Shown: one piece after another, positions 1,245-61,071 of the stretch
How positions within the stretch are numbered: position 1 is the first letter of the stretch
How the letters are laid out: each line of letters opens with the position of its first letter
Assembly (NCBI GenBank): GCA_026399435.1
Contig: JAPLQX010000019.1
Coordinates: 62,001 to 126,000 of the forward strand
Reading direction: 5' to 3'
Length of the DNA: 64,000 bases
Source: Rhodocyclales bacterium
Lineage (GTDB): Bacteria; Pseudomonadota; Gammaproteobacteria; Burkholderiales; Rhodocyclaceae
Notes under the pieces: generated by a model
The model's database searches: none
Seen by the model: only the letters and a program-made list of their open reading frames with translations
Told to the model about the DNA's origin: nothing
Position numbers and translations under genes: made by a program

Positions 1245-2210
1245 ATGAAATTCGCGTTAGTGTTTCCCGGTCAAGGCTCGCAATCGCTTGGCATGATGTC
1301 AGCCTACGGTGAGTCGCCGGTGATCCGCGCGACCTTCGACGAAGCTTCGACGGCGCTGGGTCGCGACCTCTGGCAACTGGTGGCCGAAGGCCCGGCCGAG
1401 GCGCTGAGCCAGACCGTCAATACCCAGCCCCTGATGCTCACTGCGGATATCGCGGTCTATCGTCTATGGCTTGAACGAGGCGGCGCACTGCCGGCTCTAG
1501 TGGCCGGCCACAGTCTCGGCGAGTATTCGGCGCTGGTAGCGGCCGGCGTGCTGCAACTGAAAGATGCCGTACCCCTGGTGGAACTGCGTGCCAAGGCGAT
1601 GCAGGCGGCGGTGCCGGCCGGCGAGGGTGCCATGGCGGCGGTCATGGGGCTCGATGCGGCGGCCGTGATCGAGGCCTGCGCCGAGGCCGCGCAGGGGCAG
1701 GTGGTGCAGGCGGTGAATTTCAACGAGCCGAAGCAGACCGTGATTGCCGGGCACAAGGCGGCGGTCGAGCGTGCGGCTGAACTGGTCAAGGCGAAAGGGG
1801 CCAAGCGCGCGCTGATGCTGCCTGTATCGGCACCGTTTCATTGCTCGCTGATGCAGCCGGCTGCCGAAGCGCTGAAGGCGCGACTGGCCGAACTGGATTT
1901 GGCTGCACCGCGCATTCCGGTGATCAACAACGTCGACGTGGCGCAGCTTGCCGATCCGGTCGCGATCAGGGATGCACTGGTACGCCAGGCGGCCTCGCCG
2001 GTGCGCTGGGTCGAGACCATGCAGGCGATGCAGGCGGCAGGCGTAACCCACGTTTTTGAATGCGGTCCGGGCAAGGTCTTGTCCGGACTGGTCAAGCGCT
2101 GCGTCGAAAGCCTCAACGGCGGCGCCATGAATGACTTGGCTGCCATGGATGCAGCTCTGACAGTCCTCTCCCACCAGGGGATACCGTCCCCGGCCCAGCC
2201 GGGAACATAA
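1245..2210 (+). CDS. fabD: Malonyl-CoA:ACP transacylase (FabD) with repeat-derived C-terminal tail
   Basis: Transfers malonyl from CoA to ACP to supply elongation. The 321-residue protein starts MKFALVFPGQGSQS and has the nucleophile elbow GHSLG with Ser at about residue 90. The ordinary end of the family is near NDLAAMDAAL. Here the frame runs on for about 14 more residues (SHQGIPSPAQPGT) encoded by a palindromic repeat that also occurs upstream of comEC and inside another gene; the stop codon itself falls inside the repeat. The start at 1245 gives the canonical N-terminus and lies 16 bases after fabH. Enzyme identity is certain; the tail is probably neutral. Confidence 0.95.
   Translation: MKFALVFPGQGSQSLGMMSAYGESPVIRATFDEASTALGRDLWQLVAEGPAEALSQTVNTQPLMLTADIAVYRLWLERGGALPALVAGHSLGEYSALVAAGVLQLKDAVPLVELRAKAMQAAVPAGEGAMAAVMGLDAAAVIEACAEAAQGQVVQAVNFNEPKQTVIAGHKAAVERAAELVKAKGAKRALMLPVSAPFHCSLMQPAAEALKARLAELDLAAPRIPVINNVDVAQLADPVAIRDALVRQAASPVRWVETMQAMQAAGVTHVFECGPGKVLSGLVKRCVESLNGGAMNDLAAMDAALTVLSHQGIPSPAQPGT
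2169..2210 (+). repeat. Palindromic repeat family A, copy inside the fabD 3' end
   Basis: This 42-base element reads as two adjacent hairpins, TCCC-ACCA-GGGGA and GTCCCCGGC-...-GCCGGGAAC, and ends in ACATAA. The same arrangement occurs three times in tandem at 60944-61071. It encodes the last residues and the stop codon of FabD. Confidence 0.85.
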
Positions 2211-2222
2211 AAGGAAACTGAT

Positions 2223-2969
2223 ATGGCCGATTTGAAGGGACAGATTGCCCTGGTGACGGGCGCTTCGCGTGGCCTCGGCCGCGCCATCGCTCTGGAACTG
2301 GGCGCGCAGGGTGCGACCGTGATAGGTACCGCGACGTCGGATGCGGGTGCCGCCGAGATTCAGAAGGCGCTGGATGCCGCCGGCATCACCGGCTGGGGCG
2401 CGACCGCGAACGTCACCGAAGCGGCGGCCTGCGACGTACTGATCGGCGAGATCGAGAAGAAATTCGGGCCGGTTTCGGTACTGGTGAATAACGCCGGCAT
2501 CACCCGCGACAATCTTGCCATGCGCATGAAGGACGACGAATGGGATCTCGTCATCGAAACCAATCTCAAAGCGGTGTTTCGCCTGTCCAAACTGGTCATG
2601 CGCGGCATGATGAAGGCGCGCTTCGGGCGCATCATCAACATCACCTCGGTGGTGGGCGAAGCCGGCAATCCGGGCCAGGCCAACTACGCTGCGGCCAAGG
2701 CCGGTGTGGCGGGCATGAGCCGCGCCCTGGCGCAGGAACTCGGCAGCCGCAACATCACCGTGAATTGCGTGGCGCCTGGCTTCATCGATACCGACATGAC
2801 CCGCGCCCTGCCGGATGCCCAGCGCGACGCATTGCTGGGCAAGATTCCGCTGGGTCGTCTGGGACAGCCGGACGAGATCGCGGCGACCGTGGCGTTTCTT
2901 GCATCGAAGCAGGCCGGATACATCACGGGCAGCACGCTGAATGTCAATGGCGGCATGTATATGGCTTGA
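2223..2969 (+). CDS. fabG: 3-oxoacyl-ACP reductase (FabG)
   Basis: NADPH-dependent reductase of the second elongation step. The 248-residue short-chain dehydrogenase has the N-terminal TGASRGLGRAIA nucleotide-binding motif (residues about 12-23), the NNAGITRDN segment, and the Ser...Tyr-x3-Lys active site (NITSVVGEAG then NYAAAKAG). The ending GGMYMA is typical of FabG. It begins 12 bases after the fabD stop with AAGGAAACTG upstream of the ATG, consistent with co-transcription. Nothing is unusual. Confidence 0.96.
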   Translation: MADLKGQIALVTGASRGLGRAIALELGAQGATVIGTATSDAGAAEIQKALDAAGITGWGATANVTEAAACDVLIGEIEKKFGPVSVLVNNAGITRDNLAMRMKDDEWDLVIETNLKAVFRLSKLVMRGMMKARFGRIINITSVVGEAGNPGQANYAAAKAGVAGMSRALAQELGSRNITVNCVAPGFIDTDMTRALPDAQRDALLGKIPLGRLGQPDEIAATVAFLASKQAGYITGSTLNVNGGMYMA

Positions 2970-3004
2970 CCGGCTGTCAAACTCGCGAGGGCATCCGGCG
3001 TTTT

Positions 3005-3013
3005 TGTTAAAAT
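3005..3013 (+). promoter_or_regulatory. Possible extended -10 promoter for acpP
   Basis: TG-T-TAAAAT fits an extended -10 hexamer 45 bases before the acpP start, in the only sizeable gap inside the fab cluster (88 bases). No good -35 is present at 16-18 bases upstream. A separate promoter for the abundant acyl carrier protein is plausible but unproven. Confidence 0.3.
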
Positions 3014-3057
3014 AGGCAGGTTTTTACCACCCGATCAATCAGGGAAGGAGTTTCAAG

Positions 3058-3297
3058 ATGGAGAACATCGAACAACGCGTCAAGAAGATCGTCGCCGAGC
3101 AACTGGGCGTCAATGAAGCTGATATCAAGAACGAATCCAACTTCGTGGACGATCTCGGTGCCGACTCGCTCGACACCGTGGAGCTGGTGATGGCGCTGGA
3201 GGAGGAGTTCGAGTGCGAGATTCCTGACGAAGACGCAGAGAAGATCACCACCGTGCAGCAGGCAATTGACTACGTCAACGCCAACATCAAGAAGTAA
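3058..3297 (+). CDS. acpP: Acyl carrier protein
   Basis: The 79-residue acidic carrier holds acyl chains on a phosphopantetheine arm attached to Ser37 in the [10 protein letters not shown] motif. A strong ribosome site (GGAAGGAG, 3043-3050) lies 7 bases before the ATG, fitting high expression. It sits between fabG and fabF as in most proteobacteria. The pantetheine transferase that activates it, acpS, is in this window at 17423-17806. Identity is unambiguous. Confidence 0.98.
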
Positions 3298-3336
3298 TCC
3301 TTACCCCCGTTTCAATCCTTTCTTTCGGAGTTCATC

Positions 3337-4738: not shown

Positions 4739-5161
4739 ATGAAGCCGGTCGCCCCTCTGTCGGTTTCCATCAGGCCGTCGCGTCGGCTGCTGTCGATCCA
4801 GCTGGCCGCCCATGTTGTGGCCGTTGGCGCAGTGCTGGCGGCCACCCTTCCGTCTTGGCTGGCGGTGGTTCTCCTGCTACTGATCGGAGCCTCGCTGGCA
4901 CGCCTGCGCGCGGCGTCGCCGGTCGCAAGCCTGGTCCTGCGCGGTGACGGTCGGCTTGAAACAGTCGGCGCTGACGGCACGGTGACCGAAGTCATCGTGC
5001 ATCCTCACACCCTGGTGCTGTCCTTCCTGGTGGTGCTGCTGTATCGGCAGCAAGGCCGTTTGCGCGCCCTGACCCTGCTGGCGGACAGTCTTGCCGCGGA
5101 AGATTGCCGTCAGTTGCGGCTCTGGCTGCGCTGGCGGTCGACCGCCGCGAATCCAGCCTGA
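4739..5161 (+). CDS. YgfX/CptA-family small membrane protein
   Basis: A 140-residue protein with two adjacent hydrophobic segments (about residues 20-55) followed by a soluble domain of L-x-L-x-GDGRLE type and a C-terminal DSLAAEDCRQLRLWLRW helix. This layout matches the YgfX (CptA) family, which in gammaproteobacteria lies next to sdhE and nadB; here it is next to and convergent with nadB. CptA has been reported as a toxin acting on cell-division and shape proteins, but function in betaproteobacteria is not settled. No sdhE-like antitoxin gene is beside it. Family call moderate, function open. Confidence 0.6.
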   Translation: MKPVAPLSVSIRPSRRLLSIQLAAHVVAVGAVLAATLPSWLAVVLLLLIGASLARLRAASPVASLVLRGDGRLETVGADGTVTEVIVHPHTLVLSFLVVLLYRQQGRLRALTLLADSLAAEDCRQLRLWLRWRSTAANPA

Positions 5162-5191: not shown

Positions 5192-6784
5192 TCAGATTTC
5201 GGGCGGGTGCAGCACGGTTTCCAGCGCGCGCGGCAGGGTTTCCGGGTAGTCGCGGCTGAAGTGCAGCCCGCGGCTTTCATGCCGGCGCTGAGCGCTCTTC
5301 ACGATCAGATGGGCGGTCAGCACCAGGTTGCGCAATTCGATGAGATCGTTGCCGACGCGGTAGTTTGCGTAGTACTCGTCGATTTCCTTTTGCAGCAGGT
5401 GGATGCGATGCAGGGCGCGTTCCAGCCGCTTGTTGGTGCGCACGATGCCGACGTAATCCCACATGAAGCGCCGCAACTCGGCCCAGTTGTGGGAAATGAC
5501 GATTTCCTCGTCGGCGTCGCGCACCCGGCTCTCGTCCCATTGCGGCAGGTGCGGCAGGGGCTCCACCGGCGCGGCGAGGATGTCCTTTGCCGCCGAGGCG
5601 GAGAAGACCACGCATTCGAGCAGCGAATTCGAGGCGAGGCGATTGGCGCCGTGCAGCCCGGTGAAGGTGGTCTCGCCGATCGCATAGAGCCCGGTCAGAT
5701 CGGTGCGTGCCGCCAGATCGGTGACCACGCCGCCGCAGGCGTAATGCGCGGCGGGTACCACCGGAATCGGTTCCCTCGTGATGTCGATGCCCAGTTCCAG
5801 GCAGCGGGCGAGGATGGTCGGAAAGTGTTCCTTGAGGAACTCCGGCGACTTGTGCGTCATGTCGAGGAACACGCAGTCGAGGCCGTGGCGCTTCATTTCG
5901 AAGTCGATCGCGCGGGCCACGATGTCGCGTGGCGCGAGTTCGGCGCGGCTGTCGTGGTTGGGCATGAAGCGCGTGCCGTCGGGCAGGCGCAGCAGTCCGC
6001 CCTCGCCGCGCAGCGCCTCGGAAATCAGGAAGGATTTAGCGTGCGGGTGATACAGACAGGTCGGATGGAACTGGATGAACTCCATGTTCGCCACCCGGCA
6101 ACCGGCGCGCCAGGCCATGGCCACACCGTCGCCCGTGGCGGTGTCCGGATTCGTGGTGTAGACATAGACCTTGCCGGCTCCCCCCGTGGCCAATGCCGTA
6201 TGGCTGGCACCCAGGGTCAGCACGCGATCATGGACGATGTCCAGCACGTAGGCGCCGAGGCAGCGGTTGCGCGGCAGCCCGAGCTTGGCGGCGGTGATCA
6301 GATCGACTGCAATGTGCCGTTCCAGAACCGTGATGTTGGGATGATTCTTCACCTGTTCGGTCAGTGTCTGCTGCACGGCGGTACCCGTCGCATCGGCGGC
6401 ATGAATGATGCGGCGCTGGCCATGGCCGCCCTCGCGGGTCAAATGGAAGCCCAGGGGCGTGTTGTCGGCGGTGAACGGAACTCCGCGTTCAATCAGCCAC
6501 TCTATGGCCTCGCGGCCATGTTCGACTACGAAGCGGGTGGCATCAGGGTCGCACAGGCCGGCACCCGCAGTGAAGGTGTCGTTGACATGGGCCTCGACGC
6601 TGTCGGCGGGGTCGAGTACCGCGGCGATTCCACCCTGCGCCCAGGCAGAGGCCGAGTCTGCCAGCGTCTTCTTGGTGACCAGTGCCACGCGGCGGGTATC
6701 GGCGAGCCTCAATGCGAGGGACTGACCCGCCAGGCCGCTGCCGATGATGAGGACGTCGAAATGCTGAACTGCGGCTGGATTCAT
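5192..6784 (-). CDS. nadB: L-aspartate oxidase (NadB)
   Basis: Flavoprotein that oxidises L-aspartate to iminoaspartate, the first step of de novo NAD synthesis. The 530-residue protein has the FAD-binding [14 protein letters not shown] motif at about residues 16-29, the [11 protein letters not shown] flavin-contact segment, the active-site region [16 protein letters not shown], and the succinate-dehydrogenase-like [24 protein letters not shown] motif. The C-terminal helical domain ends with the [14 protein letters not shown] signature. It is transcribed alone, divergent from rpoE and convergent with the YgfX-like gene. Length is normal. Confidence 0.96.
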
Positions 6785-6917
6785 GGGGCGGGACTATATC
6801 ACTGCGCGGAGTGTGGAACTATTTCGAAGGCCTCCGGTCACTGTGGGCAGCGGCTGGCGTTAGGGCGGCCGGAACAGTGAGGAAAGTGGGCGGAGAGGCT
6901 TGTTATACTCGCTTGCG

Positions 6918-6946
6918 GTGAACTAGAAGCCGCGAATTTTTTCATC
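6918..6946 (+). promoter_or_regulatory. Candidate sigma-E type promoter of the rpoE operon
   Basis: GTGAACTA (6918-6925) resembles the sigma-E -35 element GGAACTT, and TCATC (6942-6946) the -10 element TCAAA, separated by 16 bases. It ends about 25 bases before the rpoE ATG. rpoE operons are commonly autoregulated, so such a site is expected. A TTATACT sequence at 6903-6909 could be a second, housekeeping -10 but lacks a clear -35. Confidence 0.45.
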
Positions 6947-6970
6947 TGGCGAGAACAAACAGCAAAGCCC

Positions 6971-7570
6971 ATGGGAGATCGCGAAGCGGACCGGATACTG
7001 GTCGAGCGGGTGCAGGCGGGCGACAAGCAGGCTTTTGGCCTCCTGGTTGCCAAGTACCAGCGCAAGCTCGCGCGTCTGATTTCGCGCATGGTGCGTGATT
7101 CAGCCGAGGTGGAGGATATTGTTCAGGACAGTTTTATCCGGGCCTATAGGGCGTTGCCGGGGTTTCGCAACGACAGCGCGTTTTATACCTGGCTGTACCG
7201 GATTGGCGTCAACACCGCAAAAAACTGGCTGATGACCCATGGTCGGCGCGCGTCGGCGACGACCGGGGTGGATAGCGAGGAGGCGGAGACTTATGACGAT
7301 GCCGACCAGTTGCGCGACAACGATACTCCCGAGCGGCTGTTGATGACGAAGCAGATCGGTCAGGTGGTGAATGCCGCGATGGAAGCGCTGCCCGAGGAGT
7401 TGCGCACCGCGATTACCCTGCGCGAAATAGAGGGCTTGTCGTATGAGGAAATTGCGCAAGTGATGGATTGTCCGATCGGCACCGTGCGTTCGCGGATTTT
7501 CCGCGCCCGTGATGCGATTTCAGCGAAGTTGAGGCCCATGCTCGATGCGGCCCCGGATAAGAGATGGTGA
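6971..7570 (+). CDS. rpoE: RNA polymerase sigma factor RpoE (AlgU type)
   Basis: Extracytoplasmic-function sigma factor of the envelope stress response. The 199-residue protein has region 2 (QAFGLLVAKYQRKLARLISRMV, then EVEDIVQDSFIRAYRALPGF and FYTWLYRIGVNTAKNWL) and region 4 (LPEELRTAITLREIEGLSYEEIAQVMDCPIGTVRSRIFRAR). It is followed directly by rseA, rseB, rseC and a mucD-type protease, the classic regulatory cassette. A sigma-E-like promoter is visible upstream, suggesting self-activation. Identity is secure from both sequence and neighbours. Confidence 0.96.
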   Translation: MGDREADRILVERVQAGDKQAFGLLVAKYQRKLARLISRMVRDSAEVEDIVQDSFIRAYRALPGFRNDSAFYTWLYRIGVNTAKNWLMTHGRRASATTGVDSEEAETYDDADQLRDNDTPERLLMTKQIGQVVNAAMEALPEELRTAITLREIEGLSYEEIAQVMDCPIGTVRSRIFRARDAISAKLRPMLDAAPDKRW

Positions 7571-7574
7571 CGAC

Positions 7575-8078
7575 ATGAAGACACGGATTTCGGCACTGAT
7601 GGACGGCGAACTCGAAGCCCACGAGACTGCGGAGACGCTGCGGGCGCTGCGCCGCAGCGGGGAGTTGCGCCGCGAATGGTGCGATTGCCAACTGATCGGC
7701 GCTGCCTTGCGCGGCGAACGCGAACTCGACGTCGATGTCGCTGCGCGAGTCATGGCGGCGCTCGATCTGGAGCCTACCGTAATGGCGCCGGCGACCCGAC
7801 GCATGGCCGAATGGCAGCGGCCGGTACTGGCCCTCGCCGCATCCGCTGCGGGCGTCGCAGTGGTGGCATGGCTGGCCCTGACGCCGGTGGGCGAAGGAGT
7901 GCCGGCGGTGGCAACGGTGACGCCCAGCGCGAAACAGGAAACGGTGCTGGCGCAATCGCGGTCGACGCCGCGCCTGCAGGAATATCTGCTGGCGCATCAG
8001 GCGTACTCGCCGGGCGGCGCCGTCGTCGGTGGTGCACGCAATATTCGTACGGTGGCTGCATCGGGTGAGGGTCGCTGA
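7575..8078 (+). CDS. rseA: Anti-sigma-E factor RseA (MucA-like)
   Basis: Inner-membrane protein that holds RpoE inactive until periplasmic proteolysis. The 167-residue sequence opens with the RseA signature ISALMDGELEAHE, continues through a cytoplasmic helical domain (RREWCDCQLIGAALRGE), has one membrane span at about residues 80-100 and a periplasmic tail. It starts 4 bases after the rpoE stop; its own stop overlaps the rseB start by one base. I preferred ATG 7575 over an upstream in-frame start inside rpoE because it gives the family N-terminus. Confidence 0.88.
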   Translation: MKTRISALMDGELEAHETAETLRALRRSGELRREWCDCQLIGAALRGERELDVDVAARVMAALDLEPTVMAPATRRMAEWQRPVLALAASAAGVAVVAWLALTPVGEGVPAVATVTPSAKQETVLAQSRSTPRLQEYLLAHQAYSPGGAVVGGARNIRTVAASGEGR

Positions 8079-15919: not shown

Positions 15920-16654
15920 GTGAGCAAGCGCGTCGACGGGCAGGCGGCCTACGTCCTGCACCTGCATCCCTTCAGCGAGACCAGCCTCGTGGTCGATGTG
16001 TTCACCCGCGATCACGGCCGCGTCCCGCTGCTGGCGCGCGGCGCCAGGCGCCCGCGTTCCGCCATGCGCGGCATGCTGATGTCCTTTCAGCCGCTGGAGC
16101 TGGGCTGGTTCGGCGGCGGCGAGGTCAAGACCCTGGCAAAGGCCGAATGGCTCGGCGGCATGCCGCTGCTGGGCGGGCGTTGCCTGCTGCTCGGCTACTA
16201 CCTCAACGAGCTGTTGCTGAAAATGCTGCCGCGCGAGGACGCCCACAGTGCGTTGTTCGACGCCTATGCCTCGGCCTTGCGCGCGCTGGCCGCAGGCGGC
16301 GCCGACGCGCCGGAACTGCGCCGCTTCGAGAAAACCCTGCTGAAGGAACTTGGCTACGGCCTGACGCTCGATATCGACATGGACACCGGCGAGCCCGTGG
16401 TGCCGGAGGGCGAATACACCTACCTGATCGAGCGCGGTCCGGTCAGAAGAGTTCCCGCAGGGACGCACAGCGCTGGCGCTGGCGATACGGCGGCACTATG
16501 CGGCAAGACCCTGCTCGACATGGCGGCGGACGATTATGCCGACCCGCGCACGCGGCTCGAAAGCCGGCAACTGATGCGCCAGCTCATCGCCCATCATCTG
16601 GGCGGCAAGCCGCTGCAATCGCGGCGCGTATTCATCGAATTGCAGGAACTGTGA
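15920..16654 (+). CDS. recO: DNA repair protein RecO with in-frame repeat insertion
   Basis: Recombination mediator that helps load RecA with RecR. The 244-residue protein opens with [29 protein letters not shown] (OB-fold domain) and has the helical C-terminal part ([14 protein letters not shown] ... YLIERGP). At about residues 177-189 the sequence [13 protein letters not shown] is encoded by a palindromic repeat found almost identically in a flavoprotein gene at 43814-43850. It falls in the variable loop before [13 protein letters not shown], where homologs are short, so function is probably kept. The GTG at 15920 was chosen because it yields the family N-terminus. Confidence 0.93.
16448..16485 (+). 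repeat. Palindromic repeat family B, copy inside recO
   Basis: The 38-base element begins AGAGTTCCC, continues GCAGGGACGCA and ends in AGCGCTGGCGCTGGCGA. It differs at only about three positions from the copy in the minus-strand flavoprotein gene (43814-43850), and a looser copy lies upstream of prfC (50081-50120). It is read as [12 protein letters not shown] in RecO. Confidence 0.85.
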
Positions 16655-17806: not shown

Positions 17807-18807
17807 AAACCCTGCCGCTCGGCCCGCTGATGATCGACGTCGCCGGTCTCGAACTGTCCGACCTCGATCGCGAACGCCTCGCGCATCCGCTGGTCGGCGG
17901 CGTGATCCTGTTCAAGCGCAACTACCGCGACACGCAGCAACTTGCTGCCTTGTGTTCGGCCATCCATGCCCTGCGTGTCCCGGCGCTGCCGATCGCCATC
18001 GACCATGAAGGCGGCCGCGTGCAGCGCTGCCGCGAGGGCTTCACCCATGTGTCGCCGATGCGCCGTCTCGGCGAATTGTGGGATCGCGATGCTGCCGCCG
18101 CGCGCGCAGCGGCCGCCGACATCGGCTACCTGCTGGCGGCGGAACTGCGCGCCTGCGGCGTCGATCTTTCCTTCACTCCGGTGCTCGATCTCGACTGGGG
18201 CCCCAGCGGCGTCATCGGTGATCGCGCCTTCCACCGCGATCCGGTGGCGGTCGCCGAACTGGCCGGCGCCCTGATCGACGGCTTGCGCGCCGCCGGCATG
18301 GGCTGCTGCGGCAAGCATTTCCCCGGCCACGGCTGGGTCGCGGCGGATTCGCACTTGGCGATCCCGGTCGACGAACGCAACCTGGCCGAGATGGCGCCCG
18401 ACCTCGAACCCTACCGCCGCCTCAGGCTCGATGGCGTGATGCCGGCGCACGTGATCTACCCGCAAGTCGACAGCCGGCCCGCCGGTTTCTCGCCGGTCTG
18501 GCTGGAAAAATTGCGCAAGGAATTCGCCTTCGACGGCGTGATCTTCAGCGACGACCTGTCGATGGAAGGCGCAAGCTTCGCCGGCGACATGGTTCACCGC
18601 GCCGACGCGGCCTGGGTCGCGGGCTGCGACATGCTGCTGATCTGCAATGCGCCGGATGCCGTGGCCCAGGTGCTGGACAACTGGAAGCCTGCACACGATC
18701 CCGTGAGAGCGGCGAGGCTGGCGCGGCTCTCGCCAACCGGCCGCTGGCAGCAGGATGCCGCGCGCTATGCGGCGGGCAGGGCGGCGGTGCAAAGTCTGGC
18801 CGCCTGA
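17803..18807 (+). CDS. nagZ: Beta-N-acetylhexosaminidase (NagZ)
   Basis: Cytoplasmic glycoside hydrolase family 3 enzyme that removes GlcNAc from anhydromuropeptides in cell-wall recycling. The 334-residue protein has IDHEGGRVQR, the catalytic loop KHFPGHGWVAADSHLAIP with the Asp-His pair, and the nucleophile region FSDDLSMEGA. The last 27 residues, from RLSPTGRWQQDAARYAAG, are encoded by DNA duplicated with divergence at 19350-19432, on the other side of an inserted nucleotidyltransferase gene. The present 3' end may have been exchanged when that insert arrived. Confidence 0.95.
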   Translation: MKTLPLGPLMIDVAGLELSDLDRERLAHPLVGGVILFKRNYRDTQQLAALCSAIHALRVPALPIAIDHEGGRVQRCREGFTHVSPMRRLGELWDRDAAAARAAAADIGYLLAAELRACGVDLSFTPVLDLDWGPSGVIGDRAFHRDPVAVAELAGALIDGLRAAGMGCCGKHFPGHGWVAADSHLAIPVDERNLAEMAPDLEPYRRLRLDGVMPAHVIYPQVDSRPAGFSPVWLEKLRKEFAFDGVIFSDDLSMEGASFAGDMVHRADAAWVAGCDMLLICNAPDAVAQVLDNWKPAHDPVRAARLARLSPTGRWQQDAARYAAGRAAVQSLAA

Positions 18808-19171: not shown

Positions 19172-19331
19172 AGACCGGGTTCGCCTGTTGCATATGATCG
19201 AGGCCGATCTGGTCTGGAAGACGACCAGCGTTGAACTGTCGGCGCTCAAGGCGCGCTTGCAGGCGCTGATTTTACGGGTTTGGCGGCGAAAGTCGGCGCT
19301 GGCGGGACGGCGTTGCGCAACCTGTAATTGA
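19161..19331 (+). pseudogene. Truncated hepT-like toxin remnant
   Basis: A 56-codon frame overlapping the nucleotidyltransferase end begins MPPEDRVRLLHMIEA, which matches the N-terminal helix of HepT/DUF86 proteins. After about residue 15 resemblance stops: the rest (DLVWKTTSVELSALKAR ...) is unlike the family and the frame ends at 19331, far short of the usual 110-140 residues and without the RX4-6HXY nuclease motif. I read it as a broken toxin gene. Confidence 0.6.
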
Positions 19332-22327: not shown

Positions 22328-22713
22328 GAGCGTTCTCCCTTTTGAACTCTAACCTTAAGTCGGCCATCTAAATGACGGGAATCAACCCACAAAAATGGCG
22401 TCAAGACATTGGAATCATGTCGGTGCGATATCTAGTATTGATCTTTTCGATTTGGTTGGGCCTAACAGCTTGACTTGATACCAGTGTTTTTCGATGGGGT
22501 TGAGAGGCTCAATAAACTGGATTTGGTGGCGGGCTCACATCGGTCCGGCGTTGTATGACGCCAATAACTGAATACGACGTCGGAATTAAACGACTTATCC
22601 GGCATTTTGGCAAGGGCACGGAAATCGCCGTGGCCCGGAATCGCCGTATCACCAGCGCCGACTTTCAGCGCAACGCTTGCCAGCAAGCGCGGTCGGCTCA
22701 ACGGCGCCGCGGC
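22328..22713. other. Intergenic stretch at the edge of the low-GC module
   Basis: These 386 bases separate the GTG of the unknown minus-strand gene from the 3' end of the EamA exporter gene. The left two thirds are AT-richer like the module; GC rises after about 22610. I see no convincing gene, tRNA or palindromic repeat. The promoter of the two-gene module must lie in its left part, but I cannot place it confidently. Confidence 0.5.
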
Positions 22714-23647: not shown

Positions 23648-24421
23648 TCACAGCTGCAGCACGCCGTCGACAAGATGTCGCGATTGCGCGAGGCGGGTGA
23701 GGGCGGGCAGCAGGTTGAGGCCGGTTTCCTGCTTCAGGTGCTTGGCCGCTGCCTTGAGTTCATTGAGCGTTATGCGAAGCGGTATCCCCTGGTGGGACGG
23801 TGCTGGCGAGACTTCGATTGCGGCCATGGCGATGGCATTGCCGCTGTCGCAGGAGGGGATGGCGATGGCGTGGCCGTCGAAGGCTTCTTCGAGGCGCTTC
23901 ACGCTCTTGTTGAAATCCTTGCGCCGCGACAGCAGGTTCACGCACAGCAGTCCGTCATCGGCCAGCCGGGCACGGCAGTCGAGGTAAAAGGGCAGGGTAT
24001 CGAGCCGGCCGGTGCGCGCGTCGGCATCGAAGCCGTCGACCAGGATCAGGTCGTAGCGCTGTTTCGACTCGATCATGAAATCGGCTCCGTCGCCATGGCG
24101 AATGTCGATGCGCGCGGGGTCGTCGGGCAACTTGAAGAACTGCCGGGCAGCAGCTTCCACGCGCGGCTCGATTTCGATCACGGTCAGCTTGGCCCGCGGC
24201 CGGTAGCGGTAGAGAAACTTGGTCACCGACGCCGCGCCCAGCCCGATCTGCAACACCTTGCGCGGCCAGTCGTCGCCATGCAGCAGCAGCGGCAGCATCA
24301 TTTCGCGGGTGTATTCCAGTTCCAGCGCAAACGGCCGCGCGATGCGCATCGCGCCCTGGATCCAGCTCGAACCGAAATGCAGGTAGCGGACGCCGGCTTC
24401 CTCGCTGATGTCGATGTTCAA
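23648..24421 (-). CDS. Spermidine-synthase-like methyltransferase-fold protein with repeat insertion
   Basis: A 257-residue Rossmann-fold protein related to SpeE. It has KVLQIGLGAASVTKFLYRY (nucleotide-type loop), VIEIEPRVEAAAR, and the DLILVDGFDADARTG segment where SpeE has its catalytic Asp. It lacks the N-terminal beta domain of true spermidine synthases, so polyamine activity is doubtful. At about residues 206-214 SPAPSHQGIP includes SHQGIP encoded by a repeat half-site shared with the fabD tail. The start appears to be a TTG overlapping the hslO stop (TTGA); no better in-frame start lies upstream. Confidence 0.75.
   Translation of the reverse strand: MNIDISEEAGVRYLHFGSSWIQGAMRIARPFALELEYTREMMLPLLLHGDDWPRKVLQIGLGAASVTKFLYRYRPRAKLTVIEIEPRVEAAARQFFKLPDDPARIDIRHGDGADFMIESKQRYDLILVDGFDADARTGRLDTLPFYLDCRARLADDGLLCVNLLSRRKDFNKSVKRLEEAFDGHAIAIPSCDSGNAIAMAAIEVSPAPSHQGIPLRITLNELKAAAKHLKQETGLNLLPALTRLAQSRHLVDGVLQL
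23781..23797 (-). repeat. Half-copy of palindromic repeat family A inside a coding region
   Basis: Read on the minus strand, TCCCACCAGGGGATACC is identical over 17 bases to the first arm of the fabD copy (2169-2185). It is translated as SHQGIP in both genes. The second hairpin arm is missing here. Confidence 0.65.
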
Positions 24422-28868: not shown

Positions 28869-29711
28869 ATGAGCGTAATCCAGCTTGCCGGCATCGAGCG
28901 CGTCTTCCATCTGGGCGACAGCGTGGTGCATGCGTTGACCGGCCTCGACGTCGGCATCGAGGCCGGCGAATACGTGGCGATCATGGGGCCGTCGGGTTCC
29001 GGCAAGTCCACGCTGCTGAACCTGCTGGGCCTGCTCGATAGGCCCGATGCCGGCTCCTATCATCTCGAAGGCCGCGATGTGACCACGCTGTCGCCGGACG
29101 AACAGGCCGCCGTGCGCAGCCACCGGATCGGCTTCGTGTTCCAGAGCTTTCATCTGGTGCCGCGCCTGACGGCCGCGGAGAACATCGCCCTGCCCATGAT
29201 GCTGGCCGGCATCCCGGCGGCGGAGCGGGCACAGCGGGTGGCGCAGGCGCTCAAGGATTTCGGCCTCGACCAGCGCGCCGACCATCGCCCCGACCAGCTT
29301 TCCGGCGGCCAACGGCAGCGCGTCGCCATCGCCCGCGCGACCATCATGCAGCCCGCCGTGCTGCTGGCCGACGAGCCGACCGGCAACCTCGACCGCGCTA
29401 CCGGCGATGAAGTCATCCACTTGCTGGAAGTCCTCAACGAACGCGGCATGACCCTGATCATCGTCACCCATGACCCGAAAATCGGCACGCGGGCGCGGCG
29501 GCAACTGATGATGGAAGATGGCGAGTTGAGGCATGACAGCGCCTCAACTCGCCTTCGGCAATTGGACGACAATCCCCCCGGCCCCCTTTCCGGGATGCCC
29601 GCCGCGAAGCGGAATCCCGGGTACGCAGAGCGAGGGGGTGACGGTGTTTCGCCGGCTGCGCCGGCCCCGGGGACGCCAAGTCCGCCGTTGGCGGATCCGG
29701 CAGCGAGCTGA
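28869..29711 (+). CDS. ABC transporter ATPase, MacB/LolD class, with repeat-derived C-terminal tail
   Basis: ATP-hydrolysing subunit for the FtsX-type permeases that follow. The 280-residue protein has Walker A GPSGSGKST, Q-loop VFQSFHLVPRL, signature LSGGQRQRVAIARA, Walker [13 protein letters not shown] and H-loop VTHDPK. The catalytic domain ends about residue 225. Residues from about 236 (PPGPLSGMPAAKRNPGYAE and on through GGDGVSP) are translated from a palindromic repeat that also extends LolD. A perfect 12-bp inverted repeat (29521-29552) marks the boundary. Unlike true MacB, ATPase and permease are separate chains here. Confidence 0.9.
   Translation: MSVIQLAGIERVFHLGDSVVHALTGLDVGIEAGEYVAIMGPSGSGKSTLLNLLGLLDRPDAGSYHLEGRDVTTLSPDEQAAVRSHRIGFVFQSFHLVPRLTAAENIALPMMLAGIPAAERAQRVAQALKDFGLDQRADHRPDQLSGGQRQRVAIARATIMQPAVLLADEPTGNLDRATGDEVIHLLEVLNERGMTLIIVTHDPKIGTRARRQLMMEDGELRHDSASTRLRQLDDNPPGPLSGMPAAKRNPGYAERGGDGVSPAAPAPGTPSPPLADPAAS
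29521..29552. repeat. Perfect 12-bp inverted repeat in the 3' end of the ABC ATPase gene
   Basis: GCGAGTTGAGGC pairs perfectly with GCCTCAACTCGC across an 8-base loop. It lies in coding sequence at the point where the conserved ATPase domain stops and the repeat-derived tail begins. Confidence 0.85.
29573..29663 (+). repeat. Palindromic repeat family C, interrupted copy in the ABC ATPase gene
   Basis: The flanks (CCCCCCGGCCCCCTTTCCGG and AGGGGGTGACGGTGTTTCGC) match the copy at the start of lolD (58650-58695). Between them sit about 38 extra bases with their own palindrome (CGGGAT ... ATCCCG), as if one element had inserted into another. The whole is in frame with the ATPase. Confidence 0.75.
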
Positions 29712-34339: not shown

Positions 34340-35472
34340 GCCGGGATCTCCTGAAAATAAGCGTTTTCAACCGCTGTGGTTTTGCCTACGCCATTTCCGA
34401 TTTCCTGATGCTGGAGCAGGTAGGTCTTGGCTACTGCCCCCTGCATGGAGCCATACGTCGCTCGGTCGATTTCTTTGTCCTGCGAAAGCAGAATGACCTG
34501 ACGATTCTTGTCCGACACCCAATACTTGAGAATGTTGTTGCGGTGGCTACTGTCCAATCGCCCCAGCGGGGTATCGACGATCAACGGCGCTTCCAATCCT
34601 GAAATCTTTGCAAGACCTGCCAATAGGGCGGTTGCAAACACCTGATTTTCTCCGGCCGACTTGTCGAAAACTATCTCGTCCCCTTCATGGCTTAGAACGC
34701 GTGCTGTACCATTTTCGTCAATGTCGATCTTGTCCACGTGCTTTTTGTGTGCGAGTCTTTTGTAGACCTCGGTCATCGCTTCGCCCAGGTGTTTGATCTT
34801 CAATGAATACAGCTGTGGAATTAGATCGTGGATTAGATTTACCACGCGCTGCGCCTTGGCAACAACGGACTTAACCGGATTGGCGTTCAGAAACTTCTCA
34901 TGTTCGCGCTGGTAGACCGCCCGTTCCTGGTTTATGTTTGCAGATAATGCGGTAAGTTGCCGTTCCGCATCGCCCGATTCTTTCATTTTTTGATCGAGGG
35001 TATTGCTGACGGTCACCAATTGTGCGTTGAGTTTTGCAAGTGTTCCGTCGCGGTCAACACCTTCGATTCTTGCATAGCGATTTTTCAAATCACGAATTTT
35101 TCGCTGCAATTCGTCTCGCTTCGTCATCAATCCCAGAATGTCCTGGGCGCCGACCAGTTGCCACGGCACGGTGCGGGCGAAGCCGTGACCGGGGAACTGG
35201 GCGTTGCTCGGGTGCGCGCCGAACCAGGGCCAGCATACCGGCACGCCGCCGCGGATCGACTTGCCGAGCGCAAACTTGGCAAGCTTGCTGAGCCAGATAA
35301 GCGGCGCATGGCCGGCCGGCTGGTAGCTCATGACATGGGCCCCCTGCAGCGCTATGCTGGCGGTGGCGTAGCGGGTAGTGATGTGCGCCACGGCGAAGGC
35401 GCCCGGTAGTTCCTCGAAGGCAAGAATGTCGGCAATGGCGAGACGGCGATTCAGTTCAGCGACTTGGCTCAT
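34336..35472 (-). pseudogene. Chimeric reading frame: hexose-6-phosphate mutarotase front fused to DndD C-terminal part
   Basis: One open frame of 378 codons joins two unrelated genes. Residues 1 to about 112 (RRLAIADILAFEELPGAFAV ... GVPVCWPWFGAHP ... PGHGFARTVPWQLV) are the N-terminal third of a YeaD-type glucose-6-phosphate 1-epimerase. From about residue 116 (TKRDELQRKIRDLKNRYARI) it is the coiled-coil and C-terminal ATPase half of DndD, with signature FDKSAGENQVFATALLAGLA and Walker B APLIVDTPLGRLDS. The epimerase lacks its catalytic C-terminal part and DndD lacks its Walker A, so neither should work. The join near 35125 coincides with a drop in GC. Confidence 0.8.
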
Positions 35473-35686
35473 GGGGATGGTTCCGGGAAAAAAAGGGCTA
35501 AAAAATTGTTGGACTCATGGGCGATATGATAGCCACCGCTCAAAGGGATCGAATTCGGTTTTGTTTCGACAACATTGGTCGTTCCCCAAGCGTAGGCGCT
35601 GGCGGGACAGCGATTCATGTTCTTATGGAAATCAATGCGAACCCGACCCATTATGGCTACAAGAATGGCGACGGATGGCTGCCAGC

Positions 35687-39879: not shown

Positions 39880-41163
39880 TCAGACCAGCCCATTCATCAG
39901 CTGCACATTCACCGTATCGCCTGCGCCGACTGTTTCGCGCTCGTGTTCCAGCACGATGAAGCAGTCGGCGTCGGCCATCGAGCGCAGCACGCCGGAACCC
40001 TGCGCGCCGGTGGGGCGCACGCACCACTCGCCGTTTTCCTGGAACAGGATGCCGCGCTGGAATTCGGTGCGGCCGCGGCCCTTCTTCATGGCCTCCACGC
40101 AGCGCGCGGGAAAGGCCGGGAAGGGCGGCACGGGATCGAGGCCCGCCAGCTTGAGAAGCGCCGGCCGCACGAACTGGTAGAAGGTGACCATCACCGCCAC
40201 CGGGTTGCCCGGCAGGCCGAACAGCCAGGCGCCGGGGCGTTCTGCGCCGTCCGGTTGGATGCGGCCGAAGGCCATCGGACGGCCTGGCTTCATGGCGATT
40301 TTCCAGAACGCCACTTCGCCGAGCTGGGCCATCAGCTGCTTGATGAAGTCGGCTTCGCCGACCGAGACGCCGCCGCTGGTGATGATCGCATCGGCGCAGC
40401 CGGCGGCTTCGCGAAACGCCGCTTCAAGCGCGGCCGGGTCGTCCCTGACCACGCCCATGTCGATCACGTCGCAGCCGAGCCGGGTGAGCATGCCCCACAG
40501 CGTGTAACGGTTGCTGTCATACACGGCGCCGGGCGCCAGCGGCGTGCCGATCGAGCACAATTCGTCGCCGGTGGAAAACAGCGCGACGCGCACACGGCGG
40601 CGCACCGAGACTTCGCCGATGCCCAACGACGCGATGATGCCGATCTCGGCCGGGCGCAGCTTCCTGCCGGCAGGAACAGCGGGGCGCCCCGCCTGGAGGT
40701 CTTCGCCGGCGCGGCGGGTGTTCTGGTTGCGGCGCTGGCCGGGCGGGATGATGACGGCATCGCCTTCGACGCGCACCACTTCCTGGATCGCCACGCAATC
40801 GACACCTTGCGGCAGGATCGCGCCGGTCATGATCCTCACCGTCTCGCCGGCGCCGACTCTTCCCTCGAAGGCGCGGCCGGCGAAGGCGGTGCCGATGTTC
40901 TTCAGGCGCGTTTCGCCCGTCGCGGCCAGATCGCCGAAGCGCACGGCCCAGCCGTCCATGGCCGAGTTGTCGTGGCTCGGCACGTCGATCGGCGAAATGA
41001 CATCCACGGCCAGCACGCGATCGAGGGCCTGGCGCACGAAGACCCGCTCATGGCCGGTGACGGGGCTCAACAAATCGAGGATCAGTTCGCGGGCACGATC
41101 GACGTGCAGCGAATTGGGGTCGTAGTTGTCGGCACAGGACAGGGTCTGGAGGATGGAGGTCAT
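39880..41163 (-). CDS. moeA: Molybdopterin molybdenumtransferase (MoeA)
   Basis: Inserts molybdate into adenylylated molybdopterin. The 427-residue protein has the N-terminal VDRARELILDLLSPVTGHERVFVRQALDRVLA, the PSHDNSAMDGWAV active-site loop, IMTGAILPQGVDCVA, the domain III motif TSGGVSVGEADF and LFGLPGNPVAVMVTF. ATG 41163 gives the usual N-terminus; longer upstream reading overlaps moaA. It ends 12 bases from the convergent lipoprotein gene and follows moaA by 28 bases on the same strand. Confidence 0.95.
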   Translation of the reverse strand: MTSILQTLSCADNYDPNSLHVDRARELILDLLSPVTGHERVFVRQALDRVLAVDVISPIDVPSHDNSAMDGWAVRFGDLAATGETRLKNIGTAFAGRAFEGRVGAGETVRIMTGAILPQGVDCVAIQEVVRVEGDAVIIPPGQRRNQNTRRAGEDLQAGRPAVPAGRKLRPAEIGIIASLGIGEVSVRRRVRVALFSTGDELCSIGTPLAPGAVYDSNRYTLWGMLTRLGCDVIDMGVVRDDPAALEAAFREAAGCADAIITSGGVSVGEADFIKQLMAQLGEVAFWKIAMKPGRPMAFGRIQPDGAERPGAWLFGLPGNPVAVMVTFYQFVRPALLKLAGLDPVPPFPAFPARCVEAMKKGRGRTEFQRGILFQENGEWCVRPTGAQGSGVLRSMADADCFIVLEHERETVGAGDTVNVQLMNGLV

Positions 41164-42836: not shown

Positions 42837-44072
42837 TTAGCTGAGCAGCGAAGCGAGGTCGAAAGCAGGATCGGCCGCTTGCTCCGGCGTGGGCGAGATG
42901 TCCTTGTCGAAGAGCTTGCGGCCGTTCATGTGATCGGCCGGCTGGTTCAGCGAGTCGATCGCGATCAGCTTGTCGGCGCGGTAGTAGTAGGCGGAGAACT
43001 TCTGTGTCGTGGCATCGCCGCGCGTGACCACCTGATCGAAGCCGGTCGTCAGTCCCAGCATTTGCAGCTTGACGTCGTATTGATCGGACCAGAACCACGG
43101 CGCCGCATGGAAGGGTCGTTCGCGGCCGAGCAGTGCCGCAGCGGCCGACCTGCCCTGCTCGAGGGCGTTCTGCACCGATTCGAGCCGGCGCAGGCTGCCG
43201 TCGTCGAGGCGCCGTGCGGTGCAGTCGCCTGCGGCAACGATGGCCGGGTCGGAGGTACGGCCGCAAGCATCGACCACGATGCCGCCATTGACTTCGAGGC
43301 CCGCGGCCTGGGCCAGTTCGGCATTGGGGATGATGCCGATGCCGACCAGCACCAGGTCGGCGGGAAATTCGCGGCCGTCCTTGGTTCTTACCGCCGCGAT
43401 CCTGCCTTCATGGCCGACCAGTTCCGAAACCATGGCGCCGAGCACCACTTCGGCTCCGTGGCGGGTGTGCAGGTCGAGGTAGAACTGCGAAATCAGCGGC
43501 GGCACGACGCGCGCCATGAGGCGGTCCGCCGCTTCCAGCACGGTGACCTTCTTGTCCTTCTTGCGGGCGACGGCGGCGACTTCAAGGCCGATGAACCCGC
43601 CGCCGATGATCACCACGTTCTGCGCGGTCTCCAGCGCCGCTGCGATCGCTTTCGCGTCGTCCAGTGTGCGCAGACCCTGCACGCCCTGCCAGTCGGCGCC
43701 CGCCAGCGGCAGCGGGCGCAGGCGCGACCCGGTGCATAGCGCGAGGCAGTCGTAGGCCAGCGTCGAACCGTCGCCCAGCGTGACCTGCTTCGCGGCGCGG
43801 TCGATCGTCGTGGCGCCAGTGCCAGCGCTCTGCGTCCCTGTGGGAACTCTCAGTGCAATGTTCTTCTTCGCCAGTACTTCTGCGGGTCGCATCATCAGTT
43901 GCGCTTCAGCGGTCTGACCGAGCAGAAAACCCTTGGACAGCGGCGGGCGCTGATAGGGGGCGTGCGCTTCGTTGCCGATCAGGGTGATGTGTCCCTCGTA
44001 GCCTTCGCTGCGCAGCGTCTCGGCGACGGTAAGGCCCGCCAGACCGGCCCCGATGATCAACATCCCGCTCAT
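42837..44072 (-). CDS. FAD-dependent ferredoxin/rubredoxin reductase-like protein with in-frame repeat insertion
   Basis: A 411-residue pyridine-nucleotide-disulfide-oxidoreductase-fold enzyme of the BphA4/ferredoxin reductase type. It has FAD motif IIGAGLAGLTVAETL at the start, YQRPPLSKGFL, NAD motif VVIIGGGFIGLEVAAVA, the second FAD motif IVAAGDCTA, and the C-terminal reductase domain APWFWSDQYDVKLQMLG. Such enzymes pass electrons from NADH to a ferredoxin partner; none is adjacent. At about residues 75-86 the peptide RVPTGTQSAGTG interrupts the conserved NIAL...ATTIDRAAKQV stretch and is encoded by a repeat shared with recO. Confidence 0.9.
   Translation of the reverse strand: MSGMLIIGAGLAGLTVAETLRSEGYEGHITLIGNEAHAPYQRPPLSKGFLLGQTAEAQLMMRPAEVLAKKNIALRVPTGTQSAGTGATTIDRAAKQVTLGDGSTLAYDCLALCTGSRLRPLPLAGADWQGVQGLRTLDDAKAIAAALETAQNVVIIGGGFIGLEVAAVARKKDKKVTVLEAADRLMARVVPPLISQFYLDLHTRHGAEVVLGAMVSELVGHEGRIAAVRTKDGREFPADLVLVGIGIIPNAELAQAAGLEVNGGIVVDACGRTSDPAIVAAGDCTARRLDDGSLRRLESVQNALEQGRSAAAALLGRERPFHAAPWFWSDQYDVKLQMLGLTTGFDQVVTRGDATTQKFSAYYYRADKLIAIDSLNQPADHMNGRKLFDKDISPTPEQAADPAFDLASLLS
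43814..43850 (-). repeat. Palindromic repeat family B, copy inside the flavoprotein gene
   Basis: On the minus strand the element starts AGAGTTCCCACAGGGACGCA and ends GCGCTGGCACTGGCG. It is nearly identical to the recO copy at 16448-16485 and is read in the same frame (RVPTGTQSAGTG here, [12 protein letters not shown] there). Confidence 0.85.
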
Positions 44073-50080: not shown

Positions 50081-50120
50081 GGAGTTCCCAAAGGGACGCA
50101 CCGCGCTGGCGCTACGGCGA
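50081..50120. repeat. Palindromic repeat family B, intergenic copy upstream of prfC
   Basis: GGAGTTCCC-AAAGGGACGCAC followed by CGCGCTGGCGCTACGGCGA matches the intragenic copies in recO and the flavoprotein gene, with a few changes and an extra two bases near the end. It lies in the gap between prfC and the RHH gene, in the opposite orientation to both. Confidence 0.75.
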
Positions 50121-50135
50121 TCCGCCGCCTTGCGG

Positions 50136-58637: not shown

Positions 58638-59415
58638 CAAGCTTAGCCATCCCCCCGGCCCCCTTCCCGGGGAAGGGGGTGACGGTGGTTCGCCGCTGCG
58701 CGGTTCCGAGGAGAACGATGGCCGCGCCTTGGGGCGGCCCGGCGGCGCGGCTATTCTCGAATGCAACGGCCTGAGCAAGATCTTCCGGCAGGGAGCGGCC
58801 GAGGTGCCGGTCCTCACCGGAGTCGATCTGACAGTCGGCGCTGGCGATACGGTGGCCATCGTCGGCACCAGCGGGTCGGGCAAGAGCACCCTGCTGCATC
58901 TCCTGGGCGGGCTGGACAAGCCGACCGCGGGCCAGGTCTTGCTGCATGGCAGGGATCTGGCGCAGGTCGGCGAGGCGGAGCGCGGACAACTGCGCAACCA
59001 GTCACTGGGCTTTGTCTATCAGTTCCACCATCTGCTGATGGAGTTCACCGCCGTGGAAAACGTCGCCATGCCGCTCCTGATCCGGCGCCTGCCGCGCGCC
59101 GAGGCTGAGCGGCAGGCCACTGCGGTACTGAACCGGGTCGGACTCGGCCATCGCCTGAGTCATCGGCCCGGCGAACTGTCGGGCGGCGAACGCCAGCGTG
59201 TGGCGGTGGCCCGTGCCCTGGTCACGGAACCGGCCTGCCTGCTGGCCGATGAGCCGACCGGCAACCTGGATCGCGGTGCGGCCGATGCCGTGTTCGGCAT
59301 CCTGCTGGAACTTTGTCGCGAGCATCATGCGGCGCTGGTGCTGGTGACCCATGACCTCGATCTGGCGGCGCGGGCGGCCAGGGTCATGCGGCTGCAGGAC
59401 GGGGCGCTGGCTTAG
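58630..59415 (+). CDS. lolD: Lipoprotein-releasing ABC ATPase LolD with repeat-derived N-terminal extension
   Basis: ATPase of the lipoprotein release complex. The 261-residue protein has Walker [11 protein letters not shown]-loop YQFHHLL, signature [14 protein letters not shown] and Walker [12 protein letters not shown]. Ordinary LolD begins a few residues before [10 protein letters not shown]. Here about 35 residues precede it: [19 protein letters not shown] and a Gly/Glu-rich continuation, encoded by a family C palindromic repeat. The ATG at 58630 overlaps the lolC end, and no start closer to the domain has a ribosome site, so the extension is probably translated. Confidence 0.93.
58650..58695 (+). 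repeat. Palindromic repeat family C, copy at the start of lolD
   Basis: CCCCCCGGCCCCCTTCCCGG then GGAAGGGGGTGACGGTGG form a G/C hairpin. The same flanks bracket the interrupted copy at 29573-29663. Both copies are translated in the same frame, giving PPGPLxG and GGDGxSP. Confidence 0.8.
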
Positions 59416-59428
59416 GAACTGTCGCGAT

Positions 59429-59974: not shown

Positions 59975-60003
59975 GTATTGTCTTGATCGAATTCCGCTTC
60001 GTC

Positions 60004-60096
60004 TCAGACGATGCGGATCGACAGTTCGCCGAAGCCGTGGCTGCTGCCGGCGACGGGTAGAGCGGGAATCGCGGCGGGGGGAATGACGTAGCTCAT
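60004..60096 (-). pseudogene. Remnant of a fumarylacetoacetate-hydrolase-family gene
   Basis: A 30-codon frame with a GGAG ribosome site 6 bases before its ATG. Its first residues, SYVIPPAAIPALPVAGSS, match the typical start of FAA-hydrolase proteins in proteobacteria, and its last, GFGELSIRIV, looks like the usual C-terminus of the same family. The whole catalytic middle is missing, as if removed by an internal in-frame deletion. The C-terminal match is from memory and less sure. Confidence 0.5.
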
Positions 60097-60272
60097 GGCG
60101 GCTCCGGTAGAGGTTGGAATGATTATCGCCGATTGCCGGTTCCTCGCGATTGATGCCTCGGATCAATGGCCTCATAGAAATTACGGTTTTGACAGTGGCG
60201 ATCCGGGAGGCGAAGAATGCGGCGAACCTGTCCAAAGAGGCGGACCCGCAACGATTCAATGGAGGAAACAGG

Positions 60273-60863
60273 ATGCGCCAGTATTCCGCTTTGCCCAATC
60301 GGCCGCTGCAGCCACGCACCGGCGTCCATCGCCCATCTCAGGTATTGCCGCCCAGGGTCACGCTCGAAGATCCCGCGCTGGCGGTGATGACCGATTTCCA
60401 GAAAGCCACCGCCTTCGCCATCGACCCGGATGTCAGCGTCGATACCGCCGCGCGCATCATGCGTCGGCGCAACGTGCATCTGCTGCTGGTGATGAGCGGG
60501 GAGAATCATGTGATCGGCATCATCACTTCAAACGATCTCCTCGGCGAAAAAACGCTGCAGTGCATCTCTGCCCGCGGCATATCGCGCGCCGATGCCCTGG
60601 TGAGTGACATCATGACGCCCGAGAGCCGACTCGAAGTCATCAGCATGGACGACGTCGTGTACGCTCATGTCGGTCATGTGGTGGCGACGCTCAAGGCCAA
60701 GGGGCGGCAGCATGCGGCCGTGGTGGACGAGGATGCTTCCGGCCACCAGATCCTGCGCGGGCTGTTCTCCTGCTCCCAGATTGCGCGCCAGCTGGGTGAG
60801 GCGGTAGAGACCCCGGAGATAGCCCAGACCTTCGCCGAGATCAGCGTGGCACTCAAGGCTTGA
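60273..60863 (+). CDS. CBS-domain protein
   Basis: A 196-residue protein with two CBS motifs. The first is in TDFQKATAFAIDPDVSVDTAARIMRRRNVHLLLVMSGENHVIGIITSNDLLGEK, the second in VSDIMTPESRLEVISMDDVVYAHVGHVVATLKAKGRQHAAVVDEDASGHQILRGLFSCSQIARQLG. The first 35 residues are a Pro/Arg-rich extension. CBS pairs bind adenine nucleotides and regulate partners; none is fused here. GGAGG precedes ATG 60273. It stands alone. Confidence 0.85.
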   Translation: MRQYSALPNRPLQPRTGVHRPSQVLPPRVTLEDPALAVMTDFQKATAFAIDPDVSVDTAARIMRRRNVHLLLVMSGENHVIGIITSNDLLGEKTLQCISARGISRADALVSDIMTPESRLEVISMDDVVYAHVGHVVATLKAKGRQHAAVVDEDASGHQILRGLFSCSQIARQLGEAVETPEIAQTFAEISVALKA

Positions 60864-60943
60864 GCCTGTTTCAGCAGGAGTCATGCGCCCGCGCTGCCGG
60901 GCGTTGACCTGCCGCGGCGCCGGCTGATGCCGGGCGCATGGTC

Positions 60944-61071
60944 TATCCCGCCAGGGGATACCGTCCCCGGCGCGCGCCGGGGACATACCCCGCAAGGGGA
61001 TACCGTCCCCAGCCTTCGCCGGGGACATATCCCACCGGGGGATACCGTCCCAGGCAGGCGCCGGGGACATA
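60944..61071 (+). repeat. Three tandem units of palindromic repeat family A upstream of comEC
   Basis: Units at 60944-60987, 60988-61029 and 61030-61071 are 42-44 bases each. Every unit has GGGGATACCGTCCC and ends in GGGGACATA. The last ATA is followed directly by the comEC ATG. Each unit can fold into two hairpins, TCCC-N4-GGGGA and GTCCCCGGC-like with GCCGGGGAC. The units vary in the loops. Confidence 0.9.

Follow-up and report, generated by a model that had tools for sequence, protein, structure and literature searches.

A 26-bp motif with species-specific spelling and the in-frame repeat modules docked in it in a Rhodocyclales genome

Introduction

The DNA uptake sequences known from naturally transforming bacteria are motifs of about 10 bp present in 2245-5918 copies per genome (PMC3630211), and uptake-biased DNA is described for the Neisseriaceae and Pasteurellaceae only, as far as the uptake-sequence literature examined here goes. 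Two further systems concern repeats that enter genes. Rickettsia palindromic elements (RPEs) are free-standing repeats of about 150 nt that are translated in frame in unrelated proteins and are absent from the orthologues (PMC10969869), and repetitive extragenic palindromic (REP) sequences of the GTAG/CGTC type, which are associated with RAYT/TIRYT transposases, have been reported inside genes in Thauera (PMC3733652). Here, we analysed a window of 64,000 nt from a Rhodocyclales bacterium, namely positions 62001-126000 of contig C19 in the draft genome G000 (2.88 Mb, 57 contigs, 80.9% complete). An original prediction had described three families of short palindromic repeats in this window, A, B and C, which are translated inside unrelated genes. 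That list was incomplete: B is a derivative of a further motif, D, which had not been listed and which is 26 bp long.

D resembles the uptake sequences of the Neisseriaceae (PMC3630211; PMC2397512) in its high copy number, its presence on both strands and both inside and between genes, its conservation at orthologous sites and its dialects. It differs from them in length (26 instead of about 10 bp) and in abundance, with about 94-238 copies per Mb in the genomes that carry it instead of thousands per genome; it also belongs to another betaproteobacterial family and hosts inserted modules, and no enrichment in the core was seen. B shares with RPEs (PMC10969869) that repeat DNA is translated in frame in unrelated proteins and is missing from orthologues. 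However, B adds only 21 nt, adjoins D in all 19 G000 copies examined, sits like most copies of a second module, E, inside a pre-existing motif, folds no better than shuffled sequence, presumably differs in sequence and occurs in another class of bacteria. A is similar to the GTAG/CGTC REPs (PMC3733652) in its double hairpin, its frequent tandem arrangement and its frequent location at gene ends; it supplies the stop codon of fabD. Unlike them, it lacks the GTAG tag and is not found beside the Y1 transposase genes inspected, and D is not a hairpin. CGTC is present in A, but its GTC is paired in the fold. No report of D, A, B, C or E was found in the titles and abstract starts of the open-access literature, subscription papers and preprints being outside this search.

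Results

Motif D is abundant and, at the sites tested, replaces homologous sequence in place

In a k-mer scan that covered 25% of the G000 genome (731 kb), the commonest repeat was a 26-bp motif with sharp edges, D (RARAGTCGGCGCTGGCGRYACGGCGA). The reversed pattern at the same mismatch threshold served as background control for the counts of A, B, C and D, and letter-shuffled patterns were added as a control for D; neither kind of control came near the D counts. With up to two mismatches, D occurs 102 times in the 731 kb compared to two reversed matches; eight of these copies are the right halves of B copies. Sorted by 0, 1, 2 and 3 mismatches the counts are 19, 35, 48 and 29 versus 0, 0, 2 and 6 for the reversed pattern (a reversed total of 8 when three are allowed). 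In the whole genome at up to one mismatch, 104 forward and 113 reverse copies are balanced between the strands, and the resulting 217 copies compare with 0 for the reversed pattern. In stretches from four genomes of the genus, 86% of the DNA is called coding sequence and called genes contain 139 of the 211 D copies; D is mostly genic yet commoner between genes than expected. Half of the 102 copies in G000 (51) are clearly genic, and they are read in frames +0 (25 copies, giving VGAGDTA), -0 (12), -1 (8) and +1 (6), with none in +2 or -2.

Among 300 genomes drawn from the order, 24 match D, and many copies are present in just four of them, G000 (217), G080 (159), G046 (130) and G019 (62); the remaining 20 have 1-5 copies each. 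Four genomes from other families of the order (G239, G169, G192 and G445) hold three to five near-exact copies each and may contain a weaker or differently spelled version.

At the sites tested, D is not an insertion but replaces homologous sequence in place. It is colinear with solved homologues in MoeA (at both sites, compared to E. coli MoeA), in LolD and in a lipoyl domain. Among 286 site-by-genome comparisons within the genus, D was present at equal length in 212 and at another length in 48, and the others were of equal length without D (9), longer or otherwise different (14) or short (3). The moeA copy at 40837..40857 has a counterpart of equal length, with one to three mismatches to D, in 10 of 10 relatives compared. 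In RecO, for which 30 loci from 41 genomes searched were aligned, the site falls in a loop whose length varies, and 25 loci lack a D-like peptide there. Several of the D-free loops equal the D loop in length (such as G002, G022, G029 and G032), others are longer, and that of G027 exceeds even the B loop. A D-like peptide is carried by G001 and by genomes from three other genera (G038, G008 and G014), and the B form by G000 alone. The same peptide at the same site in other genera, which the original prediction had named as grounds for its refutation, is therefore found in part, for D at the RecO site but not for B.

D is constrained as DNA and has dialects

The motif-base frequency at wobble positions, with one wobble base left out at a time, was compared to the expectation from codon usage. 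Position 8 is a T in 31 of 44 copies in frame +0 (2.0 expected) and in 17 of 25 in frame -1 (0.9 expected), position 15 is an A in 11 of 14 copies in frame +1 (0.7 expected) and in 17 of 19 in frame -0 (1.8 expected), and the remaining wobble positions of D are also above expectation, some of them moderately. These four frames show that D is constrained as DNA whatever its reading frame. Furthermore, the D core has a higher identity (0.857) than the flanks (0.803) across 38 orthologous groups (344 pairs).

The spelling of D varies among species. The top 14-mer is a spelling of D in all six genomes scanned (G117, G150, G151, G148, G101 and G069). GTCGG is used in G000 and G069 (54 and 49 copies versus 1 of three other spellings in each), and G150 has GTTGG instead (25 versus 2 with GTCGG). 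GTMGACGCYGG prevails in G117 (21 versus 10), and CTCGG is found in 6 versus 5 copies of G151. In genus g19 (represented by G080) the end of D reads GGGACGGCA, and g64 (represented by G148) has TGGTGA. D is thus shown to have species-specific spellings, or dialects.

Chance or composition as the source of the elements was ruled out by the reversed-pattern controls, the letter-shuffled patterns and the wobble test. An explanation of the motif by chance, or by the codon bias that comes with a GC-rich genome, could appeal to GAGDTV-like peptides, which are natural in some folds (MoeA, LolD and the lipoyl domain), and it is left with a negligible probability by the wobble test, the dialects and reversed controls of 0-2 at the thresholds used (8 for D at three mismatches).

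B, E and short A are modules within D

Comparison with syntenic relatives revealed that B is a 21-nt (7-codon) module within D. All 19 exact B inverted repeats in the G000 stretches adjoin D sequence, 14 with the full right half and five with the GCGCTGGCGCTGG start of that half. The same holds for four of five B inverted repeats in other genomes; the fifth is the shorter B+E form of G151. The B copy at C19:149595 faces D in eight relatives, and G154 has a 53-nt B-like form there. In the flavoprotein, the extra residues correspond to a gap of 7-8 residues in the solved homologues 1q1r and 3fg2. The module adds 21 nt in 77 of 81 copies and 15 nt in the other four, alike inside and outside genes, which argues that the in-frame length belongs to the module itself and does not only reflect selection after insertion.

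E lies in the D spacer in 9 of 11 G000 copies by inspection, and adds 36 nt in seven of eight copies measured and 38 nt in one. The short A modules found in D number six and have added lengths of 24, 27, 27, 39, 39 and 42 nt (three of nine rows, with 13, 13 and 28, look like anchor artefacts and were dropped). B and short A dock after AGT and E in the RY spacer, and the modules lengthen their host proteins by at least 7 residues. As a correction to the original prediction, the copy in the SpeE-like gene is such a short A module inside D. At this site, plain D is present in four of eight relatives (G069, G117, G150 and G152), D+A in G000 and G154, D+A+E in G001, and a B-like module with E in G151, and G155 has the plain length without D. 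Among the 32 of 43 A copies that fall in the examined stretches, 4 carry remnants of D, 2 are nested in E and 26 show neither, according to script labels. Copies of A and C are present outside D as well, those of A often at gene ends. In 180 kb of G080, a D-bearing genome, no B, A or E was found. We are highly confident of this anatomy of D and its modules.

The various alleles at one site could also have arisen if D were rewritten in place by a copy-and-replace process, such as gene conversion from single-stranded DNA or RNA copies, that likewise converted D to B, D+A or D+E. Such a process would fit the uniform dialect at many loci and the different modules at identical positions in D. Since just some 6 and 17 nt of shared sequence flank the module on its two sides and a D-bearing stretch without modules exists (G080), we consider it very improbable.

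Reading frames and folding

Named genomes contributed 81 B copies in 80 of at least 106 loci, five of them at edges. The 42 clearly genic copies are read in frames +0 (33), -1 (4), +1 (2), -0 (2) and -2 (1); for the unfiltered G000 copies the best frame is +0 in 16 of 33 and -1 in 8. The bias of B to +0 exceeds that of D (33 of 42 in the named genomes versus 25 of 51 in G000, of which four are B halves; Fisher p 0.005). The claim that each family keeps one frame holds for most genic B, although some copies are antisense (AVSPAPAxCVPxGT). A stop-free frame as the sole cause of the shared frame was not borne out, as 76-100% of the B copies are open whichever of the six frames is read. We infer that the frame of B is set by the host D together with the fixed in-frame length of the module.

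Compared to shuffled sequence, A forms two strong hairpins (z -5.77). D (z -0.86, from one representative), B (-0.32), E (-0.10) and C (-1.35) fold no better than the shuffles, and the description of the families as palindromic has good support for A only.

Genome-wide counts of families A, B and C

All three families named in the original prediction are far above chance in the window and have further copies elsewhere in G000, where A (AGGGGATACCGTCCCC, up to two mismatches) occurs 43 times versus 2 reversed, B (up to three mismatches) 33 times versus 0 and C (up to three mismatches) 12 times versus 1. The six proteins described carry the peptides as named: FabD (Acyl_transf_1) and the SpeE-like protein (PF01564) share SHQGIP from A, RecO and the Pyr_redox flavoprotein RVPxGTxSAGxG from B, and LolD and the ABC ATPase PPGPLxG...GGDGxSP from C, the ATPase frame being read by eye from the sequence. 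Their in-frame insertion into unrelated proteins was confirmed by empty or shorter alleles in relatives from the same genus and by the gap in the solved homologues of the flavoprotein. Three independent families of the Rickettsia type do not make up the whole anatomy, however, since B, most copies of E and some of A sit within the pre-existing D.

Within the family, 12 of 150 genomes contain B and 8 of 150 contain A (G000 counted in both). The named B-bearing genomes among the matches listed include Sulfuritalea, Rugosibacter, Sulfurisoma, other Rhodocyclales and also metagenome genomes of beta- and gammaproteobacteria with less precise names; among these matches, a few reach 84-89% DNA identity to the examined stretches and many are lower. 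C is a long element of modular build, with a length estimated at roughly 105 nt (L100 at 2606, L064, L107, L086 and window positions 58645-58756).

Features of the window

The copies of all elements in the window are compiled in Table 1. At the ABC ATPase site, seven of nine relatives have neither C nor E (G069, G157, G150, G152, G154, G155 and G151), G001 has C without E, and G117 has a different sequence. The C copy of lolD is longer and internally expanded in G117, and solved chains named LolD align from query residue 42 only. The gene downstream of the tandem A units, comEC, is the DNA channel gene of natural transformation; in place of the three units of the window, one is found upstream of comEC in G069 and none in G150 and G155. 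The window also contains a 70-nt direct repeat (18736-18805 and 19361-19430; 84% identical, 625 nt apart).

Table 1. Copies of D, its modules and families A and C in the window
Feature	Position	Strand	Relatives and homologues
B (D with 21-nt module) in recO	16451..16492	+	plain D at the site in G069 and G117; a D in G150
B in flavoprotein gene (42840-44072, minus), read RVPTGTQSAGTGATT	43806..43847	-	21-nt shorter D in G001, G117 and G151
B, not clearly genic	50084..50125	+	nested D + E + A at the site in G069
A at fabD 3' end, gives SHQGIPSPAQPGT and stop codon	2167..2210	+	absent in G069, the sole relative compared
Short A module within D, SpeE-like gene (SPAPSHQGIPLR; PF01564)	23771..23818	-	
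Three tandem A units, 42-nt spacing, directly upstream of comEC (PF03772, 61072-63438)	60944..61071	+	
C with E module in it, 3' end of ABC ATPase gene, read PPGPLSG...GGDGVSP	29572..29711	+	
C at lolD N-terminus, 37 codons	58645..58756	+	absent in G069, G155 and G150
D in lolD	58834..58854	+	colinear with solved LolD
D in moeA (RVGAGETVRIMTGA)	40837..40857	-	colinear with E. coli MoeA
Second D in moeA	39910..39930	-	colinear with E. coli MoeA
D near gene 3' end	213..233	-	D + E (+36 nt) in G069
D inside called gene	4964..4984	+	
D, exact core	19292..19312	+	
D, probably intergenic	22642..22662	-	
D near gene start	35428..35448	+	D also in G001 and G069
D, probably intergenic	35592..35612	+	

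Discussion

Our comparison shows two layers, the motif D and a set of in-frame modules, some of which dock in it. We read them as an uptake-type motif that has been colonised by the modules, and regard this reading as about as probable as its opposite. The dialects, the occurrence on both strands and at genic as well as intergenic sites, and the conservation of D resemble those of DNA uptake sequences; by analogy with the known systems, uptake is a plausible function of D, to which we give somewhat less than an even chance. D would then be recognised by a sequence-specific factor of the cell itself, most likely the uptake receptor of natural transformation. A bias in uptake would both disseminate and maintain D, and dialects would result as the receptor changes. 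Transforming DNA would carry the docked modules from strain to strain, and in genes the modules with a length divisible by three would survive. In its fullest form, which we put forward tentatively and hold to be rather doubtful as a whole, D might be a DNA uptake sequence in Sulfuritalea and its relatives, which would be the third bacterial lineage to have one, with dialects that isolate species, and B, E and short A might be parasitic docked modules that ride on transforming DNA and are tuned for translation.

Several observations weigh against this uptake interpretation. Known uptake sequences are shorter and more frequent than D, and the spacing of D is no more even than random. In three stretches, where the closest copies are 64 nt apart, we found no inverted D pairs of the neisserial terminator type. 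In the three genomes compared, D is not depleted in segments unmatched in relatives, which include fast-evolving spacers: G000 has 5 copies in 48 kb of unmatched versus 22 in 154 kb of matched sequence, G069 21 in 113 kb versus 41 in 187 kb, and G117 4 in 7 kb versus 11 in 96 kb, a higher rate in the unmatched part. Since B and E fold at shuffle level, a role of these modules as hairpins is not supported. Lastly, four of seven Y1 genes inspected, two of which share one context, are followed by D at no more than 200 bp from their 3' end, compared to a base rate of 105 in 1050 genes.

The random spacing and the lack of a contrast between core and accessory segments do not favour uptake over another binder, and D could be the binding site of a different conserved and co-evolving factor, for example a nucleoid, segregation or DNA-processing protein, with modules that tolerate or exploit D. 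A co-evolving binder would suffice for the dialects, the constraint at the DNA level and the evolution in place. We consider it an unlikely candidate, as D shows neither clustering nor strand bias; to our knowledge, hundreds of long sites, many of them in proteins and with dialects changing within a genus, would be unusual for such binders.

The copies of D after Y1 genes could point to a transposase, and this association is not fully explained away. All elements including D might be mobile elements of the REP or RPE kind that are moved by Y1 (RAYT/TIRYT) transposases, with D as the shortest member. In-gene REPs are known, in Thauera among others (PMC3733652), and the two strong hairpins of A agree with such an origin. 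However, D folds like shuffled sequence and is colinear with homologous proteins. The occurrence of D does not follow the presence of Y1_Tnp either, as G080 has 159 copies of D and no Y1_Tnp match and G050 has three Y1_Tnp matches and no D. In six stretches of 12-17 kb around Y1 genes, no B inverted repeat was detected at up to one mismatch and the nearest A was about 5 kb away; two further Y1 loci (L309 and L311) were scanned for D only. The Y1 gene pair of G000 has GGGGTCAGA boxes in place of A or B. We therefore rejected a RAYT as the source of D, and consider the mobile-element explanation of the whole set improbable. Y1 genes are also followed by CTGACCCC or CTGTCCCC boxes, which are GGGGWSAG-like (L343 at 5,300-8,000, L356 and L357).

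As a candidate uptake sequence with dialects from an environmental lineage unrelated to the known ones, D would provide an independent test of how such motifs originate and how they isolate species. The docking of in-frame modules offers a concrete route by which small repeats can go on extending core proteins, RecO among them, by new peptides while leaving them intact.

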